NCBI RefSeq assembly: GCF_006547045.1
Contig: NZ_CP041242.1
Location: 2,056,001-2,120,000 of the forward strand
Length of the DNA stretch: 64,000 nucleotides
Direction: 5' to 3'
Source: Lysobacter alkalisoli
GTDB lineage: Bacteria > Pseudomonadota > Gammaproteobacteria > Xanthomonadales > Xanthomonadaceae
Shown here: one piece after another, positions 29,919-38,207 of the stretch
How positions within the stretch are numbered: position 1 is the first letter of the stretch
How the letters are laid out: each line of letters opens with the position of its first letter
The notes under the pieces: model-generated
The model's input: only the letters and a program-made list of their open reading frames with translations
Told to the model about the DNA's origin: nothing
The model's database searches: none
Made by a program: the position numbers and the translations under genes

Positions 29919-32900
29919 ATGAAACTCACCGAAGTCTCGCTGCGCAATCCCGCCGCCGTGGCCGCGGCGGTCTGCATGGTCTGCGTGTTCGGCCTGATCA
30001 GCCTGTTCGACCTGCCGCTGCAGCTGTTCCCGGACATCGAGCGGCCGCAGATGAACATCCAGACGTCGTGGCGCTCGGCGTCGCCGCAAGAAATCGAGTC
30101 GGAGATCATCGAGCCGATCGAAACCGTGATGCGCGGCCTGCCGGGGCTCGAGGAAATCTCCTCGAACATCAGCTCCGGGGGAAGCTGGATCAATATGACC
30201 TTCGCCGTTGGCAGCGATATGGACGCCACCCTGGTGGAGGTGCTGTCGCGGATGAACCGGCTCCCGCCCCTGCCCCGCGACGCCGATCCGCCGGTCATCC
30301 TCTCCGGCGGCTTCAGCGCCGGCGACACCCTCACCTTCTTGTTCGTGCAGAAATTGCCCGGCACGCCGGGAAGCGTGGACGATCTCCGTCAGCTCATCGA
30401 GGACCGCATCGCGCCGCGGCTTGCGGCGATTGACGGCGTCGCCGGCGTCGACGTCAGAGGTGCCGATGCCGATGAGCTGACCATCGCCGTGGACCCACGG
30501 CGCGCCGCGGCGCTCGGCATCCAGATACCCGAGATCGCGGCGCTGGCGGCACAGGCCACGGACGTTTCCGGCGGCACGGTCGAGGCCGGCCGCCGCGAGT
30601 ACGTGCTGCGATTCGCCGGCCGGTATTCCCCCGAGGCGCTGGGAGACCTGATCCTGGCCTGGCGCGACGGCCGCCCGGTGCGCCTGTCCGATGTCGCCGA
30701 AATCACGGTCCAGCCGTCCCGGCGCGGCAGCGTGTCATACCAGAACGGCAATCCCGCGATCGGACTGCGAATCCTGCGCGCGAACGGCGCCAACGTACTC
30801 GCGACGCTGGACGAAGTGACACGAACCATCGACGAGCTGCGCGAGACCGAGTTGCAACCGCAAGGACTCGACATCCGCCAGAGCTTCGATTCCGGGGTGT
30901 TCATCCGGCGTGCGATCAGCCTGCTGTCCGGCAGCCTGGTGGCCGGCCTGGTCCTGGCGGTGGGCTGCCTGTGGTGGTTCCTTCGCGATGCCAGGGCCAC
31001 GGTACTGATCGCCTGCGCCATCCCGATCTCGATCCTGGGCACCTTCATCGTGCTGAAGCTGACCGGCCACAGCCTCAACGTGATCTCGCTGGCCGGACTC
31101 GCATTTGCGGTCGGCATGGTCATGGACGCGGCCGTGGTCGTGGCCGAGAACATCGTCCGCCTCCGCGAGGCCGGGGTGCCGCCACTGCGGGCCGCGCTCG
31201 ACGGCACACGCCAGGTCGGTGGCGCGCTGATGGCGTCCACGCTGACCACGGTGGCGGTGTTCCTGCCGGTGATCTTCATGGAGGACGTGGAAGGCCAGCT
31301 GTTCGCGGACCTGGCGCTGACGATCTCGATCGCCGTGGGCATCTCGCTGCTGGTCGCCCTCACCGTCCTGCCCGCGGCCGCCGGCACCTGGCTGCGTCGC
31401 GGAACCGGTCGCGGCGATGCCGGCCGGTGGGAGCGGTTCAGCCGGCGGGCGCTCGCGGCCACGGTCACCCGCCGGCGCCAGTTCGGCTGGATCGCCGGGC
31501 TGGTGGTGGCCCCGATCGTGCTGACCGCGCTGTTGATGCCGCGCATCGACTACCTGCCGCCGGTGCAGCGCGCCGCCGCGGATGCCGATATCAGTCTGCC
31601 GCCCGGCATGAGCCGGCAACGCGCCGACCGCGAAATCGCACCGCTGCTGCTCGAACGCATGCGGCCCTACATGGATGGCGACCGGCAGCCGAAGCTGAGC
31701 AACTGGTATCTCAACTTCTGGGACGGCGGATCGGCCTCGCTCGGTGCCCGCACCGAGGATCCGGAGCGGGTCGACGAGTTCCTCAGGGTCCTGCGTGAGG
31801 AGATCATCGTCGATCTCCCGGACACCCAGGCCTCGGTCTTCCGCGGACCGCTGTTCGGCGGCTTCGGCGGCTCGGCCCGTGCGATCGCCATCCATCTTCA
31901 GCATCCCGATGCCGACGCACTGCTCGAGGCCGCAGAGATCGGCCGCCAGCGGCTGGAACAGCACTTCCCCGGGGGTCGGGCGCGTACCTGGCCCAACACC
32001 GCCGCCGCCACGCCGGAGCTGAGGCTCAGCCCCGATGACCGCCGCCTGGCCGAAGTGGGCTGGCGCCGCAGCGACCTTGCATCGGCGATCCGCACGCTTG
32101 GCGACGGTCAATGGCTGGGCGAGCAGTTCGACGGCGACCGGCGGCTGCCGATCATCCTGCGCGGGCAGGAGGAGCCGAGCCTTGAATCGCTGCGTTCGGC
32201 GCCGCTGGCAACGCCGTTCGGCGGCACGGTCCAGCTGGGCGAGCTGGCCCGGATCGACACCGTGCTGGCCCCTGCCCAGCTGCGCCGCATCGATGGCCGC
32301 CGCACGGTCAGCCTGACCGTCGACCCGCCTGACGAAATGTCGCTGCAGGAAGCGCTCGAGCGGGTCGACCGGGACATCGTGCCGGCGTTGCGCGCCGCAA
32401 TGCCCACCGATGCGGGTGTGCGGGTGGCCGGCAGCGCGGACCGACTTGGCGAGGTGGTCCGCACGATGAGCGGCAATTTCGCGATGGCCCTGCTCGTGCT
32501 CTTCATGCTGATGGCCGCCATGTTCCGTTCGTTGCGGGACAGCGGCTACGTCATGGCGACGCTGCCGATGGCCGTGCTGGGCGGCGTACTCGGCCTGCAG
32601 GTTCTCAACCTGGTGTCGGGGCAGAACCTGGACCTGCTGTCGATGATCGGCTTCATCATGCTGCTGGGCATCGTCATCAACAACGCCATCCTGCTCGTCG
32701 CCCGGACCCGCGAGGCGCAGGCCGAAGGACTGGGGTTGGACGACGCACTGCAGCAGGCGTTGAGCCAACGCCTGCGTCCGATCCTGATCGCCGCGCTGAC
32801 CGGGGTGATGGGCGCGCTGCCGATGGCCATCAACCCCGGCCCGGGCGCGGCGATCTACCGCGGCATGGCCGTGGTGACGGTGGGCGGCATCGCCCTGAGC

Positions 32901-33017
32901 CTGCTGTTCACGGTGCTGCTGATCCCCGCCCTGCTACGCCTGCTCGAATCCCGCCGCCTGCCCCTGACCGAGACGCCGTTGGCAGCGGCCGACGCCTCCC
33001 TGGCCTCCCCCCAATGA
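29919..33017 (+). CDS. RND efflux pump inner-membrane subunit
   Basis: A 1032-residue AcrB/MdtB-like proton-driven exporter: 12 helices in two repeats and two large periplasmic loops. Helix 4 reads GLAFAVGMVMDAAVVVAEN, keeping only one Asp where AcrB has two adjacent ones. Helix 10 reads MLLGIVINNAILLVARTRE, with Asn in place of the AcrB lysine. These changes resemble those in metal-type (CzcA) and other RND families, so the substrate class is open. The adaptor gene follows 25 bp later, the reverse of the common adaptor-first order, and no outer-membrane factor gene is nearby. Confidence 0.92.
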   Translation: MKLTEVSLRNPAAVAAAVCMVCVFGLISLFDLPLQLFPDIERPQMNIQTSWRSASPQEIESEIIEPIETVMRGLPGLEEISSNISSGGSWINMTFAVGSDMDATLVEVLSRMNRLPPLPRDADPPVILSGGFSAGDTLTFLFVQKLPGTPGSVDDLRQLIEDRIAPRLAAIDGVAGVDVRGADADELTIAVDPRRAAALGIQIPEIAALAAQATDVSGGTVEAGRREYVLRFAGRYSPEALGDLILAWRDGRPVRLSDVAEITVQPSRRGSVSYQNGNPAIGLRILRANGANVLATLDEVTRTIDELRETELQPQGLDIRQSFDSGVFIRRAISLLSGSLVAGLVLAVGCLWWFLRDARATVLIACAIPISILGTFIVLKLTGHSLNVISLAGLAFAVGMVMDAAVVVAENIVRLREAGVPPLRAALDGTRQVGGALMASTLTTVAVFLPVIFMEDVEGQLFADLALTISIAVGISLLVALTVLPAAAGTWLRRGTGRGDAGRWERFSRRALAATVTRRRQFGWIAGLVVAPIVLTALLMPRIDYLPPVQRAAADADISLPPGMSRQRADREIAPLLLERMRPYMDGDRQPKLSNWYLNFWDGGSASLGARTEDPERVDEFLRVLREEIIVDLPDTQASVFRGPLFGGFGGSARAIAIHLQHPDADALLEAAEIGRQRLEQHFPGGRARTWPNTAAATPELRLSPDDRRLAEVGWRRSDLASAIRTLGDGQWLGEQFDGDRRLPIILRGQEEPSLESLRSAPLATPFGGTVQLGELARIDTVLAPAQLRRIDGRRTVSLTVDPPDEMSLQEALERVDRDIVPALRAAMPTDAGVRVAGSADRLGEVVRTMSGNFAMALLVLFMLMAAMFRSLRDSGYVMATLPMAVLGGVLGLQVLNLVSGQNLDLLSMIGFIMLLGIVINNAILLVARTREAQAEGLGLDDALQQALSQRLRPILIAALTGVMGALPMAINPGPGAAIYRGMAVVTVGGIALSLLFTVLLIPALLRLLESRRLPLTETPLAAADASLASPQ

Positions 33018-33042
33018 CCACGTCCGAGTGGAGCACTCCCGC

Positions 33043-34212
33043 ATGAAGCCTCCCCACATGAAGCATCCCCGAGTGAAGCACGCCATGCCCCGATTGACGA
33101 AAGTCCTGATCGCCGCCGCCGTTCTCGCCTCGGCGCTGACGCTCTACGCATTCCGGGGCACCGACACGCCCGCCGACGCCTCCGCAGCGACTGCACCGAA
33201 CCGGGACACCGCTGCTTCCTCGCCGGCCGTGGTGCAGGTCGCTCCTGCGGTCGATACCGAGTTCGCCCCACTCCACCATGCCACCGGCAGCGTCATCAGC
33301 CGGCGCGATGCGCAGGTGGCCAGCGAGCAGGACGGTCGCGTGGTCCGGGTCGCCGACGTCGGACAGCATGTCGCGACCGGCGAGCCGCTCGCCGTCCTGG
33401 ACGACACGACACTGGGACTCAGGGAGCAGGAGTTCCGGGCCGAGCTGGCCCGCATCGACACCCTGCTCGAGCAGGCCCGGCGTCAGGAACGGCGTTATGC
33501 GCAGCTCGCCGATGCACAGAACATCGCCCGCGCACAATACGAACAGATGCGTGCCGATCGCGACGTGCTGGTCCAGGAGCGTGCCCGTGCCGCCGCGCTG
33601 TTGGCGCAGACCCGGCACCAGCGCACGCAGATGATCGTCCGCGCACCCTTTGGCGGAGTGGTGGTGGAGCAGCGTGCGCAGGTCGGTGAATTCCTGGCAC
33701 GCGGCGCTCCCGTCGCGCGGCTCGTCGATACGGAGGGACTGGAGATCCGGGCGCGCGCACCGGTGACGATGGCGGCACGGCTGTTCGTCGGCAGCCCGGT
33801 CCGGATCAGTGCCGAAGGGCTGCCCTCGCGCAGCCATGAGATCACCGCGATCGTACCGGTCGGTGACGAGCTCTCCCGTCAGATCGAGATCCGCATCGCG
33901 CTCGACGATATGCCGCTCGCGGTCGGCAGTGCGGTCGAACTTGCCATCCCCAGTGCATCGCCCCGGAAGGTACTGGCGGTGCCCCGCGATGCGTTGCTGC
34001 TGCGGCGCGAAGGCAACTACGTGCTGCGCGTCGACTCGGACCAGCGGGCCCGGCGGATCCCGGTGGAGCTGGGCGAGGAGATCGACGGTCTGGTGGAGGT
34101 CGATGGCCCGCTGGGGTCGGGTGACCTGCTGGTGGTCATGGGTGGCGAACGCCTCGAGCCCGGCCAGCCCGTGCGGGTCGAACCTGAAATGGCGGTGGCG
34201 ACATCACGTTGA
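33043..34212 (+). CDS. RND pump periplasmic adaptor (membrane fusion protein)
   Basis: Periplasmic adaptor linking the RND pump to an outer-membrane channel. It has an N-terminal membrane anchor (VLIAAAVLASALTLYAF), a lipoyl half-motif ISRRDAQVASEQDGRVVRV near residue 90, an alpha-hairpin (LARIDTLLEQARRQERRYAQL onwards), the return lipoyl half MIVRAPFGGVVVEQRAQVGEF, and beta-barrel and proximal domains. I chose the ATG at 33043, nine bases after GGAG; a GTG five codons earlier and later ATGs are alternatives. The five-prime end is a run of ATG/GTG-Lys repeats (MKPP..MKHP..VKHA). Confidence 0.9.
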   Translation: MKPPHMKHPRVKHAMPRLTKVLIAAAVLASALTLYAFRGTDTPADASAATAPNRDTAASSPAVVQVAPAVDTEFAPLHHATGSVISRRDAQVASEQDGRVVRVADVGQHVATGEPLAVLDDTTLGLREQEFRAELARIDTLLEQARRQERRYAQLADAQNIARAQYEQMRADRDVLVQERARAAALLAQTRHQRTQMIVRAPFGGVVVEQRAQVGEFLARGAPVARLVDTEGLEIRARAPVTMAARLFVGSPVRISAEGLPSRSHEITAIVPVGDELSRQIEIRIALDDMPLAVGSAVELAIPSASPRKVLAVPRDALLLRREGNYVLRVDSDQRARRIPVELGEEIDGLVEVDGPLGSGDLLVVMGGERLEPGQPVRVEPEMAVATSR

Positions 34213-34851: not shown

Positions 34852-35490
34852 ATGGATACCTTCGTGCTCACCCTCGACCTGATCGGCACCTTCGTCTTCG
34901 CGCTCAGCGGCGCGATGATGGGCGTGCGCCGCCAACTGGACCTGTTCGGCGTGCTGGTGCTGGCCTTCGCCACCGCCAGTGCCGGCGGCATCCTGCGCGA
35001 CCTGCTGATCGGGGCGGTACCGCCTGCGGCGCTCAGCGACTGGCGCTACCCGGCGATCTGGATCAGCGCCGGACTGATCGCGTTCGCCTGGAGCCCGCGG
35101 ATCGAGCGCCTGCGGCATCCGGTACGGGTATTCGACGCGCTCGGGCTGGCGGTGTTCGCCGTGGCCGGTACCGACAAGGCGCTCGAAGCCGGCATCGGCC
35201 CGTTGATGGCGCCCTGCCTCGGCATGCTGTCCGGCATCGGTGGAGGCATGCTCCGCGACGTGCTGCTGGCGCAGGTACCGCTGGTGCTGCGCGCGGAGCT
35301 GTATGCCGTGGCCGCGCTGGCCGGCGCCGGCGTGGTCGCGATCGGCGACGTGCTCGGCCTGCCCGGCCAGGCGACCGCGGTGGCCGGCGCCCTGCTCTGC
35401 TTCGGCCTGCGCATCGCCGCGCTGCGGTATGGCTGGCATCTGCCGATCGCCCTGCAGGCGCCGCGCAGCCCGGACGAACCTCCTGCCTGA
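34852..35490 (+). CDS. TRIC/YicG (UPF0126) family membrane channel
   Basis: A 212-residue membrane protein with seven helices in two UPF0126 repeats. Each repeat has the glycine-rich signature: GGILRDLLIG near residue 45 and GGGMLRDVLLAQVPLVLR near 128. Bacterial TRIC homologues form trimeric cation channels, and YicG has been linked to glycine uptake in Escherichia coli; which applies here is unknown. The stop lies inside a 9-bp tandem repeat. Confidence 0.87.
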   Translation: MDTFVLTLDLIGTFVFALSGAMMGVRRQLDLFGVLVLAFATASAGGILRDLLIGAVPPAALSDWRYPAIWISAGLIAFAWSPRIERLRHPVRVFDALGLAVFAVAGTDKALEAGIGPLMAPCLGMLSGIGGGMLRDVLLAQVPLVLRAELYAVAALAGAGVVAIGDVLGLPGQATAVAGALLCFGLRIAALRYGWHLPIALQAPRSPDEPPA

Positions 35491-35525
35491 CCCGCCTGAC
35501 CGACCTGACCGACCTGACTGGCCTG
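35485..35525. repeat. 9-bp tandem repeat, about 4.5 copies
   Basis: Copies start at 35485, 35494, 35503, 35512 and 35521 with consensus (G/A)CCTGACCG. It overlaps the end of the TRIC gene and stops nine bases before the ECF41 promoter motif. Confidence 0.8.
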
Positions 35526-35533
35526 TATCGGGC

Positions 35534-35560
35534 TGTCACGGCCACGCCACCTGTCCCGTC
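35534..35560 (+). promoter_or_regulatory. ECF41-type promoter of the sigma-factor gene
   Basis: TGTCACG, a 16-bp spacer and CGTC, matching the published ECF41 promoter elements (TGTCACA and CGTC). It ends nine bases before the sigma-factor ATG. The same arrangement precedes the AhpD-like gene, indicating positive autoregulation. Confidence 0.78.
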
Positions 35561-35568
35561 CTGGCTAC

Positions 35569-36438
35569 ATGAGCACTGATACTTTCGAAACCCATCGCCC
35601 GCGCCTGTTCGCGCTGGCCTACAAGCTGCTGGGCAGCCGCAGCGATGCCGAGGACGTGGTCCAGGATGCCTGGCTGCGCTGGTCGCAGGCCGAGCACGAG
35701 GGGATTCGCGATCCCGAGGCCTGGCTGATCACGGCGACCACCCGGCTTGGCATCGACCGCCTGCGCCTGGTCCGCCACCAGCGCGAAACCTATCCCGGGC
35801 CGTGGCTGCCGGAGCCGCTGCAAGTCGATGTCGACACCGCGCTCACGCCCGAGCACGGCGCCGAACTGGCCGACCAGGTCTCGTTGGCGTTCCTGACGCT
35901 GCTCGAACGACTCGGACCCGACGAGCGGGCCGCGTTCCTGCTGAAGGAGACCTTCGACTACGACTACGGCCGGATCGCGCAACTGCTCGGACACAGCGAG
36001 GCCAACTGCCGGCAGATGGTGCACCGTGCACGCACGCGATTGCGGGCGGAACGGCCGCGCTTCACGGTCGCATCCGGCCAGCACCGGCGCCTGCTGGAAC
36101 GCTTCATGCACGCGACGCAGGCCGGCGACCAGGCCGCGATCATGCAGCTGCTCGACGCGAACGCCCGCCTGGTCACCGACGGTGGCGGCAAGGTCACCGC
36201 GGTCATCCGCCCGCTGGTCGGCGCCGAGCGCATCGCACGCCTGTTCTGGGCCGTCGCACGCCGGTTCGGGGACGGGACCGAAGGCCGCATCGGTCGGGTC
36301 AACGGCGAACCCGCGCTGCTGCGCTGGCGCGGGGGCCGGCTGTTCTCGATCACCACGATCACGATCGACGGCGGCCGCATCACCCAGGTACTGACGGTGA
36401 TGAATCCGGACAAGCTGCACGGGCTGCTGAACGCCTGA
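35569..36438 (+). CDS. ECF sigma factor, ECF41 group (SigJ-like)
   Basis: Extracytoplasmic-function sigma factor with a fused C-terminal SnoaL-like control domain instead of a separate anti-sigma factor. The 289-residue protein has sigma region 2 (YKLLGSRSDAEDVVQDAWLRW), the linker motif GPWLPEPL near residue 78, region 4 (LGPDERAAFLLKETFDYDY), then the C-domain with DGGGK at about 204-208 and NPDKL near 279-283. The linker and these C-terminal motifs are hallmarks of ECF41. Its own promoter motif lies just upstream and a CMD/AhpD-type gene is downstream, the classic ECF41 pairing. Confidence 0.94.
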   Translation: MSTDTFETHRPRLFALAYKLLGSRSDAEDVVQDAWLRWSQAEHEGIRDPEAWLITATTRLGIDRLRLVRHQRETYPGPWLPEPLQVDVDTALTPEHGAELADQVSLAFLTLLERLGPDERAAFLLKETFDYDYGRIAQLLGHSEANCRQMVHRARTRLRAERPRFTVASGQHRRLLERFMHATQAGDQAAIMQLLDANARLVTDGGGKVTAVIRPLVGAERIARLFWAVARRFGDGTEGRIGRVNGEPALLRWRGGRLFSITTITIDGGRITQVLTVMNPDKLHGLLNA

Positions 36439-36471
36439 GTCCGGCAGGGCGATGGGCTATCGATCGGCGGC

Positions 36472-36498
36472 TGTCACGCCACGACGCCCTGCCCCGTC
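36472..36498 (+). promoter_or_regulatory. ECF41-type promoter of the AhpD-like gene
   Basis: TGTCACG-N16-CGTC, identical in both elements and spacing to the motif at 35534-35560, with the shared flanks GGC before and CCT-like bases after. It lies about 58 bp before the ATG of the AhpD-like gene. Confidence 0.8.
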
Positions 36499-36555
36499 CT
36501 TCCCATACAACGGCCATGGTGGCCGCCTTAAGACAAAATGCCGGAGAAGACGACA

Positions 36556-37026
36556 ATGCAAGCCCCCCACATCGACTACACCGTCCACGCGCCGAAGGCG
36601 TTCCAGCAACTGGTTCAGCTGAGCGGACAACTGTACAAGGGTCCGCTGGGCTTGAGCCTGGTCGAGCTGGTCTCGCTGCGCGTATCGCAGCTCAACGGGT
36701 GCGTGTTCTGCCTCGACATGCACACCGAAGCCTTGCGCAAGGCAGGCGTGGCACAGCGCAAGCTCGACACCGTCGCCGCCTGGCGCGAAAGCCCGTTGTT
36801 CGACGACCGTGAACGCGCTGCGTTGGCCTGGGCGGAAGCCCTGAACGACCTGGGACAGGCCGCGATCCCCGATCAGGCGCTGCAACGGTTGCAGGCGCAC
36901 TTCGACGAGCGCGAGGTATCCGAGCTGACCTTCGCCGTGGCCGCGATCCGGGCCTGGAACATGCTCAACGTCGGCCTGCGCAAACCACTGCCGGACGTGC
37001 CCTACTCGGCCGATACCGGGGCGTGA
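36556..37026 (+). CDS. AhpD/carboxymuconolactone decarboxylase family protein
   Basis: A 156-residue helical protein with the redox motif CVFCLDMHTEAL (CXXC followed by His two residues later), as in AhpD-like alkylhydroperoxidases. The ATG at 36556 follows GGAG by nine bases; another ATG at 36538 lacks such a site. CMD-fold proteins are the commonest partners of ECF41 sigma factors, and the upstream promoter motif places it under this one. Likely role: defence against peroxides or a related redox reaction, substrate unknown. Confidence 0.9.
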   Translation: MQAPHIDYTVHAPKAFQQLVQLSGQLYKGPLGLSLVELVSLRVSQLNGCVFCLDMHTEALRKAGVAQRKLDTVAAWRESPLFDDRERAALAWAEALNDLGQAAIPDQALQRLQAHFDEREVSELTFAVAAIRAWNMLNVGLRKPLPDVPYSADTGA

Positions 37027-37083: not shown

Positions 37084-38207
37084 CTAGGGCATCGGGGCGG
37101 CGGCACCGGGGCTCCGGCGCTGGAACAGATCCCGATAAGGGTCGCGGAAAGCGTCACGGGCACCTCTGTCGGCGGGCCGGCTCTTCAGCGACCTGGCCAT
37201 GGCCCATTGGCGGCCGGCTTCGCGCTCATTGCCCATCAGGGCATGGACGCGGGCCAGACCGAGGTGGAACTGTGGTTCGCCGCGATGCAGGCGGATCGCG
37301 CGGCGATAGGCGTCGAGGGCGGCTTCATGGTCGCCCCGCCGCTCGTGCTGCAGACCGACGACGAAGTTGCGGTAAGGATCGCGCCGCTCCATCCGCGCCA
37401 ATCGGCGCTCATAGCGGGCCGCCTTGCCGGCCTCGCCGTGATGTCTGTACAGATTGACCAGGTTGGACAGTGCTGCCGGGTGTTGCGGGGCGGTATCGAG
37501 CACGGCCAGATAGGCCTGCTCCGCCGCAACGATGTCGCCGAGGCGGTTTCGGGCCACGCCGATATTGTTCATGCCCGGCACGAAACCCGGCTCCAGCTCG
37601 ATCGCGGCATCGAAATGACGGAGCGCGGCAGCCATCTCGTCGCGTTCGAGCAGCTCGACACCACGGTTGTTGATGAAGTGCGCCAGCGCGCGACGGTCGC
37701 TGATCTCCCGCGGCGGGTTGCGACTGAGCGTGAGCCCGGGCTCGAAATCGACGGTGTAGTGCCGCCCCCGACATCGACGCCGGCATTGACGTGTCCGGCA
37801 TGGATGACGACGTTGCTGTCCAGGCTGCCGGGCCAGACCAGCACATCGTCGGTTTCCTGCATGTGGGCATCGAAACCCACCCGACGCGCCAACACCACGA
37901 AGGCCAGAGTGAAGGACAGGCAGTTGCCGCGTCGGTCGTGCAGGGTCTCGGCGACGGAGCGAGTGGCTTCGTTGTCGTACTCGAAGGCCAGTCCGTCGGA
38001 GGCGAACATCCACTCAACCAGTCGCTCGAGCCGCCTGACCGGTTTCGGTTCCGCCGCCACCTGTTCCTGCAGCGGCGCGTGCAGCTCCGCCGGCACGGCG
38101 GTGACCTGCTCCCAGTCCGACAGCACCGGCACCGGAGGCGGCGCAGGCAGGTCGAGCGTGGACAGCGCCAGTGCCGCCGCCATCGTCCAGGTCAACATGA
38201 TGCGCAC
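37084..38207 (-). pseudogene. Transglutaminase-like/TPR protein, interrupted by a frameshift
   Basis: Two overlapping frames encode consecutive parts of one secreted protein. The first (from the ATG at 38207) has a signal peptide and a transglutaminase-like core with RGNCLSFTLAFVVLARRVGF and later HAGHVNAGVDVGGG. The second continues HYTVDFEPGLTLSRN and then about four TPR repeats (FINNRGVELLERDEMAAALR, FVPGMNNIGVARNRLGDIVA and so on). The frames meet at a C5 run at 37765-37769 (G5 on the coding strand). One more G would give VDVGGRHYTVDF in a single frame of about 375 residues. Marked as broken, but a homopolymer error is likelier than true decay. Confidence 0.8.

Follow-up and report, generated by a model that had tools for sequence, protein, structure and literature searches.

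The window analysed here is a stretch of 64,000 nt of the Lysobacter alkalisoli genome, which is a single contig of 3.86 Mb. On its plus strand a sigma factor gene (35569..36438, 289 aa) is followed by the gene of a CMD/AhpD-like protein (36556..37026, 156 aa), here called the partner. The sigma protein carries the sigma2 and sigma4 regions (Sigma70_r2, 2.9e-14; Sigma70_r4_2, 2.6e-13), a WLPEP linker at residues 79-83 that is invariant across 11 aligned sequences, the motifs DGGGK and NPDKL, and a C-terminal extension of about 100 residues with a SnoaL_2-like domain whose match (E=6.6e-5, 23.9 bits) falls just below the Pfam curated cut-off of 27. It scores 342 bits with the NCBIfam model SigX4 (cut-off 323) and 321 with the SigJ subfamily model (cut-off 271), and PDB 5xe7 (SigJ) aligns to residues 3-285 with E=4e-53. 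Judged from its sequence the gene product is an ECF41 (SigJ-type) sigma factor, and the ECF41 identity given in the initial annotation is borne out by both models, the 5xe7 match, the linker and the SnoaL-like domain. The window offers no in-frame alternative to the start codon ahead of the conserved sigma2 region.

The partner contains the pattern E-x11-CVFC-x3-H, which we liken to AhpD in the roles of its residues. It matches PF02627 (CMD, 3e-22) and ahpD_dom (61 bits, cut-off 27.8), and its closest solved structures are PA0269 and relatives (PDB 2ijc, 4.6e-37; 2o4d, which is PA0269, 6.7e-37). From these matches and the CVFC motif the partner is classed as a CxxC protein of the AhpD/CMD family, as had been proposed. 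The further label "thiol peroxidase-like" stands as far as the CMD/AhpD-like family and its CxxC motif are concerned, and beyond that it is a family-level guess. The AhpD subfamily proper was considered and set aside, as the full AhpD model gave 29 with a cut-off of 192, and we do not claim membership. A Shine-Dalgarno-like GGAG can be read on the plus strand at 36543..36546, 9 nt ahead of the ATG at 36556; an in-frame upstream ATG at 36538 is possible, by eye without a ribosome-binding site. In one relative (L012) two tandem CMD-type genes follow the sigma gene, with CxxC motifs at 2579 and 3118.

No anti-sigma gene adjoins the sigma gene among the scanned neighbours, which were the CMD gene, a glycine-transporter family protein and an ABC transporter. 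On the minus strand, at 37084-38207, two overlapping frames read, as judged from the translations, like one transglutaminase-like/TPR protein broken by a frame change that could be natural or a sequence error. Upstream of the locus, genes for an RND efflux pump and a membrane-fusion protein are likewise read from translations at 29919-34212, and at 35486-35521, between the upstream gene end and the sigma promoter, short repeats of the CCTGACCGA type follow one another in tandem with a period of 9 nt.

Directly upstream of each of the two genes, where such promoters would be expected, lies the motif TGTCACG-N16-CGTC. For the sigma gene it spans 35534..35560 on the plus strand (-35 TGTCACG at 35534-35540, -10 CGTC at 35557-35560), and for the partner 36472..36498 on the same strand (-35 at 36472-36478, -10 at 36495-36498). 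The sequence confirms what the initial annotation had described, in that both elements, the 16-nt spacing and the preceding GGC are identical in the two copies. The seventh -35 base is G where the ECF41 consensus has A, and the rest of the motif is exact. Taken by itself the motif could occur by chance in the window, as 0.66 matches are expected with a gap of 14-18 nt and at least two were found in 14 of 100 shuffles; if one mismatch is tolerated, 6 matches are seen in the window where 7.1 would be expected. A chance origin is disfavoured by the placement of the pair before these genes, by the genome-wide scores and by conservation in the close clade.

For the conservation counts, 149 and 395 genomes were searched, and the loci of relatives were fetched from the matches listed, together with 80 named loci. 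We define the close clade by sigma proteins at least 58% identical, giving 118 loci with 108 distinct upstreams, window included; L029, which is partial, and L074, a duplicate of L010, were excluded, and identical upstreams or leaders were counted once. The sigma-gene motif is present in 106/108 distinct loci, the partner follows on the same strand at a distance of no more than 900 nt in 103/108, its promoter is found in 102 of these 103, and both promoters occur together in 100/108. The search let the first base be T or G; T stands there in 105 of the 106 sigma promoters, and CGTC is present in every one. The spacer is 16 throughout, within a scan range of 15-17 for the sigma promoter and of 16 only for the partner promoter. 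G as the seventh -35 base is the majority choice in this clade (74/106 sigma promoters, 81/102 partner promoters). In the two upstreams that lack the motif (L179 and L226) CGTCAC replaces TGTCAC, and by eye the ATG still stands 9 nt past CGTC.

The genome-wide search that had been suggested for this motif was run on the exact core, with no mismatch in it, and found TGTCAC-N17-CGTC 8 times (4 per strand) against 3 for a backwards control. We scored these matches with a matrix built on 186 distinct promoters from other loci (training median 25.7 bits, fifth percentile 17.4). The two locus promoters reach 23.8 and 29.5 bits, while the other six stay at or below 16.9, so only the locus pair scores like the promoters of relatives. 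As additional targets these six were rejected; each also lies inside at least one stop-to-stop frame of more than 200 aa, which is itself no proof of a gene. One of them (G000:C1:2391455-2391481, L006) lies 11 nt upstream of an ATG that could plausibly start a multi-pass membrane protein, and is treated as chance because the motif was not found upstream of the sole other orthologue (E<=1e-30, 40 genomes). The scan agrees with a regulon of two transcripts, short of proof. Homology, conservation and the scan together uphold the assignment to TGTCACA/CGTC-type ECF41 promoters and support the proposed two-transcript autoregulated locus; that both genes are transcribed by this same sigma factor we infer from the ECF41 precedent.

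The sigma ATG stands 78 nt past the end of the same-strand gene upstream, and a simple scan finds no terminator-like site between the two genes. The sigma gene might then be expressed mainly by read-through, with its own motif weak or vestigial. The retention of the sigma promoter in 106/108 distinct close-clade loci speaks against this, as does a sigma ATG that mostly lacks a ribosome-binding site, and we consider read-through highly improbable as the main source of the sigma mRNA.

If the sigma gene is transcribed from its own promoter, the position of that promoter may bear on translation. In the rpoE9 operon of S. meliloti an ECF41 transcription start has been mapped 9 nt after CGTC, according to the available text of the source (PMC3616915). 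In the window CGTC ends at 35560, so that the A of the sigma ATG, at 35569, occupies position +9. On the strength of this published distance and the conserved spacing, we predict with good confidence that the sigma mRNA is leaderless and starts on the A of its own ATG. Among the 106 distinct loci the nearest ATG comes 10 nt past CGTC in 69 and 9 nt past it in 26; in the remaining 11 the distance is 31-34 nt (7 loci), 15 nt (3) or 45 nt (1). Four of the 11 exceptions have a second in-frame ATG at 9 nt, so that an ATG at 9-10 nt is available in 99/106, window included. For the 69 loci at 10 nt a leaderless mRNA would need a +10 start, as otherwise it would carry a one-base leader. The seven exceptions at 31-34 nt are close-clade loci, six of them in one genus, and show little Shine-Dalgarno character where scored.

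The bases around the two start codons differ too. C precedes the sigma ATG in 91/95, a pyrimidine-purine start context, against 62/102 for the partner ATG, and an anti-Shine-Dalgarno duplex of -4 kcal/mol or better is found at 7/95 sigma ATGs against 70/102 partner ATGs. Folded over their first 32 nt, the predicted leaderless sigma mRNAs have a median of -2.0 kcal/mol (70 distinct), compared to -10.5 for internal stretches of the same genes; this low structure is largely base composition, as shuffles reach -2.7 kcal/mol.

Outside the close clade the spacing is less uniform. In a distant branch containing Dyella, 14/19 motif-bearing upstreams of that identity range place a leader of 24-33 nt ahead of the sigma gene, and the branch mostly retains the partner hairpin described below; the leaderless and hairpin features are thus separable. 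Outside the order the sigma-gene motif was found in 13/67 distinct upstreams, and by the nearest-start rule a start lies at 9-10 nt in 4/13 (Delftia, Massilia and two Nonomuraea), with an alternative in-frame start at that distance in two more of the 13. A Streptosporangium GTG at 9 nt falls outside the nearest-start count, and the 9-10 nt spacing is seen in several actinobacteria as well. On a tree of 83 rows, where any in-frame ATG, GTG or TTG at 9-10 nt earned the leaderless label, this label needs 7 changes, at least 5 of them forced by the starred branches, so it is clustered and not of single origin there. Within the close clade of this tree it is near-universal, the leadered exceptions being L020 and 5/6 rows of one genus. 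Five further sequences (L238, L242, L246, L254 and L263) are distant ECF41 paralogues, with a start codon (GTG in L238) 9-10 nt past TGTCACAAT-type promoters, and for three of them the genome carries a close-clade copy too; no partner-gene match was found within roughly 2.5 kb around these five loci.

Applying the same published +9 distance to the partner promoter, with support from base composition, places the predicted transcription start at 36507 on the plus strand, an A in the window. We collected partner leaders from 133 loci, of which 129 have a motif match, giving 115 distinct leaders, 98 of them from the close clade; of the four leaders that lack the motif two (L024, L030) show a variant -35 by eye and two (L105, L131) none. 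Past CGTC the leaders have G at +9 in 104/115, A at +10 in 97/115 and A at +11 in 106/115. The partner promoter overlaps the sigma gene end in 75/115 distinct leaders, and in 74 of these 75 transcription is predicted to start within the sigma stop codon or two bases beyond, so the overlap could explain part of the base bias at +9 to +11. Among the non-overlapping leaders +9 is G in 30/40. The window is unlike the 75 overlapping cases, its partner promoter sitting in a short intergenic stretch.

The predicted partner mRNA of the window would read ACAA, then CGGCCA-TGG-TGGCCG, then GGAG, then the ATG at 36556. The second element is a predicted 5'-terminal RNA hairpin (36511..36525, plus strand), with four unpaired nt ahead of it at the predicted end of the mRNA. 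Of the collected leaders 107 have a stem of at least 5 pairs, and in 104 of these it begins between +11 and +15; stems of this length are frequent in shuffles too (mean 61/115, largest 76). More specific is the core GGCC-N4-7-GGYC, found in 99/115 leaders, compared to 2.4 on average and at most 7 in shuffles that preserve base composition and not dinucleotide composition. The loop letters vary (TGG, TCG, CGG, CCG and CTG, for example).

For the hairpin alignment a pairing filter retained 110/115 leaders; 4 more were removed because of their register, and collapsing the duplicates left 85 distinct sequences. Pairing is seen in 91.5% of cells against 86.8% when shuffled (0/500 as high), and changes on both sides of a pair in 26 cells against 7.4 (0/500 as high; slid registers reach 13 at most), although the rows were registered by a pairing-maximising script and the sequences are related, so that pair counts are inflated. 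Two-sided changes touch 5/7 pairs compared to 2.9 in shuffles (9/500 as high), and for two of five covariation measures a small number of shuffles did as well (9 and 5 of 500). Over their first 32 nt the predicted partner mRNAs have a median folding energy of -14.4 kcal/mol against -8.7 shuffled, and 107/108 beat their own shuffles, which like those of the leaders keep base and not dinucleotide composition. The minimum-energy folds from the predicted start leave 3 unpaired 5' bases in 65/108 and 4 in 22/108. Over its whole 96 nt the window leader is no more stable than shuffles (z +1.13). The partner mRNA is predicted to enter a GGCC-loop-GGCC hairpin 3-4 nt past its start.

It may be that the locus is an ordinary two-promoter ECF41 locus, in which the promoters are real, the 5' ends have no special role and the short spacing is due to compact upstream DNA. 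Loci with ECF and COE genes in tandem and both promoters are indeed already reported in the available text of Wecke 2012 (PMC3426412), and the leadered branch does without leaderless starts. Against this account stand the 9-10 nt spacing in 95/106 loci, the near-fixed C before an ATG that mostly has no ribosome-binding site, and a hairpin that persists while its letters change, and we regard it as unlikely.

The GGCC palindrome past the partner promoter might also be read as DNA, namely as an operator for a dimeric repressor or activator that adds a second control layer. It is near-perfect and positioned where a repressor would block initiation. The outer positions nevertheless swap identity and still pair (at one pair GC 52, AU 12, GU 4, CG 2), two inner pairs include one-sided G-U pairs (GU 8 and GU 4) that would be disfavoured in a DNA half-site, and no convincing second copy appeared among the 6 own-genome hits of a hairpin model that were inspected, of 60 others listed. 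An operator is on these grounds quite unlikely, less so than read-through but more so than an ordinary locus.

At gathering thresholds Rfam finds nothing in the window, and a genome-wide hairpin family was rejected, the palindrome by itself showing no enrichment (134, with 185 for a control pattern, on each strand). With the hairpin model R1 the partner leader ranks first in its own genome (30.6 bits), its reverse strand scores 27.1 and the rest follow from 24.6 down, 150 of 8400 candidates having been scored. The model is unspecific, as 39/40 genomes match at E<=0.1, and below the top scores it therefore cannot separate members from chance. No ECF41 promoter was found in the 75 nt before 15 other hits inspected (6 in the own genome, 9 in relatives); several of these hits lie within coding frames by eye, and at least one (L291) may be intergenic.

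What the hairpin does as RNA can be discussed in two ways. In E. coli a stem-loop at the 5' terminus of an mRNA can stabilise it, and we tentatively suggest, as somewhat short of an even chance, that the partner hairpin is such a stabiliser. The RppH-type pyrophosphohydrolase of B. subtilis requires two unpaired bases at the 5' end, with a preference for three or more, as far as the available text goes (PMC3997798), and by analogy the three unpaired 5' bases on many predicted partner mRNAs may still admit an enzyme of this type. The hairpin may instead be a regulatory RNA element, protein-binding, serving as ribosome standby or temperature-sensitive. A GGAG-type ribosome-binding site lies a few nt behind it in many of the leaders listed, which would suit such a role, but the variable loop letters leave no conserved recognition loop, and we see this as a possible though rather unlikely function.

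Taking the stabiliser reading, we propose the following course of events. The fused SnoaL-like domain would permit sigma activity in response to a signal, and the sigma factor would direct RNA polymerase to two near-identical promoters, its own and that of the CxxC AhpD-like partner. The sigma transcript would begin at the A of its own AUG and be translated as a leaderless mRNA, and the partner transcript would begin 3-4 nt ahead of a GC-rich hairpin with a ribosome-binding site close behind. The hairpin might shield the partner mRNA from 5'-end-dependent decay and so give a high, stable output, and the leaderless sigma mRNA might stay low or be conditionally translated, keeping the positive loop from running away. 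This asymmetry in stability between the two mRNAs is our hypothesis. We moderately favour the view that we are dealing with a small, autoregulated ECF41 switch with opposite 5' ends, whose likely purpose would be asymmetry between regulator and effector. The wider proposition for Lysobacteraceae ECF41 we hold as evenly balanced: one signal and near-identical promoters would yield a leaderless sigma mRNA and a hairpin-capped effector mRNA, and the ratio of regulator to effector would be set post-transcriptionally, hard-wired by the distance from -10 to ATG and possibly dependent on stress-altered ribosomes.

The conserved rule for a predicted leaderless start and hairpin can be read from the sequence and gives a concrete, readily tested handle on the balance in ECF41 loops. 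It suggests that promoter position by itself can impose the mode of translation. If true, the locus would be a clean natural case for asking whether leaderless translation damps an autoregulatory loop.

The kind of locus, ECF41 with a COE gene and both promoters, is already known, and the leaderless spacing and the hairpin are what appears to be new. Neither feature was found in the ECF41 and leaderless literature, among the matches listed and judged by title and the start of the abstract, with subscription papers and supplements outside this scope. The available text of Wecke 2012 makes no mention of them (PMC3426412), and the sole paper found with both ECF41 and leaderless does not, in the text available, call the rpoE9 operon leaderless (PMC3616915). 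As outlined in its accessible part, Wecke 2012 describes ECF41, a widespread ECF group, as about 400 proteins from 10 phyla, with a COE neighbour (carboxymuconolactone decarboxylase, oxidoreductase or epimerase), the promoter TGTCACA-N16-CGTC and a single-target regulon; no reproducible growth phenotype and no difference with the oxidative-stress compounds tried were reported there (PMC3426412).

The present locus shares with those ECF41 systems the sigma2 and sigma4 regions, the WLPEP linker, the C-terminal extension, the CxxC CMD neighbour and the promoter type, as far as they are described in that text, and differs in a -35 that ends in G. Both promoters are found in 100/108 close-clade loci here, compared to 20% of the >ECF> >COE> loci of Wecke 2012, with 53 in the table, according to the same available text (PMC3426412). 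By sequence comparison the sigma factor resembles SigJ of Mycobacterium tuberculosis (PDB 5xe7) over nearly its whole length and in domain order. S. meliloti RpoE9, also an ECF41 factor, has one CMD target and TGTCACA-N16-CGTC as well, but there, in the available texts, the CMD gene comes first and both genes are taken as one operon (PMC3616915, PMC6180224). A sigma-factor mRNA apparently cited as leaderless is that of sigJ in Streptomyces coelicolor, which differs in being, according to a cited title in the accessible text, under sigma H control (PMC3160421). The partner hairpin resembles the 5' stem-loop stabilisers of the ompA-leader type in its placement a few nt from the 5' end of the mRNA, and differs from them in being a predicted structure that belongs to one sigma-driven gene.
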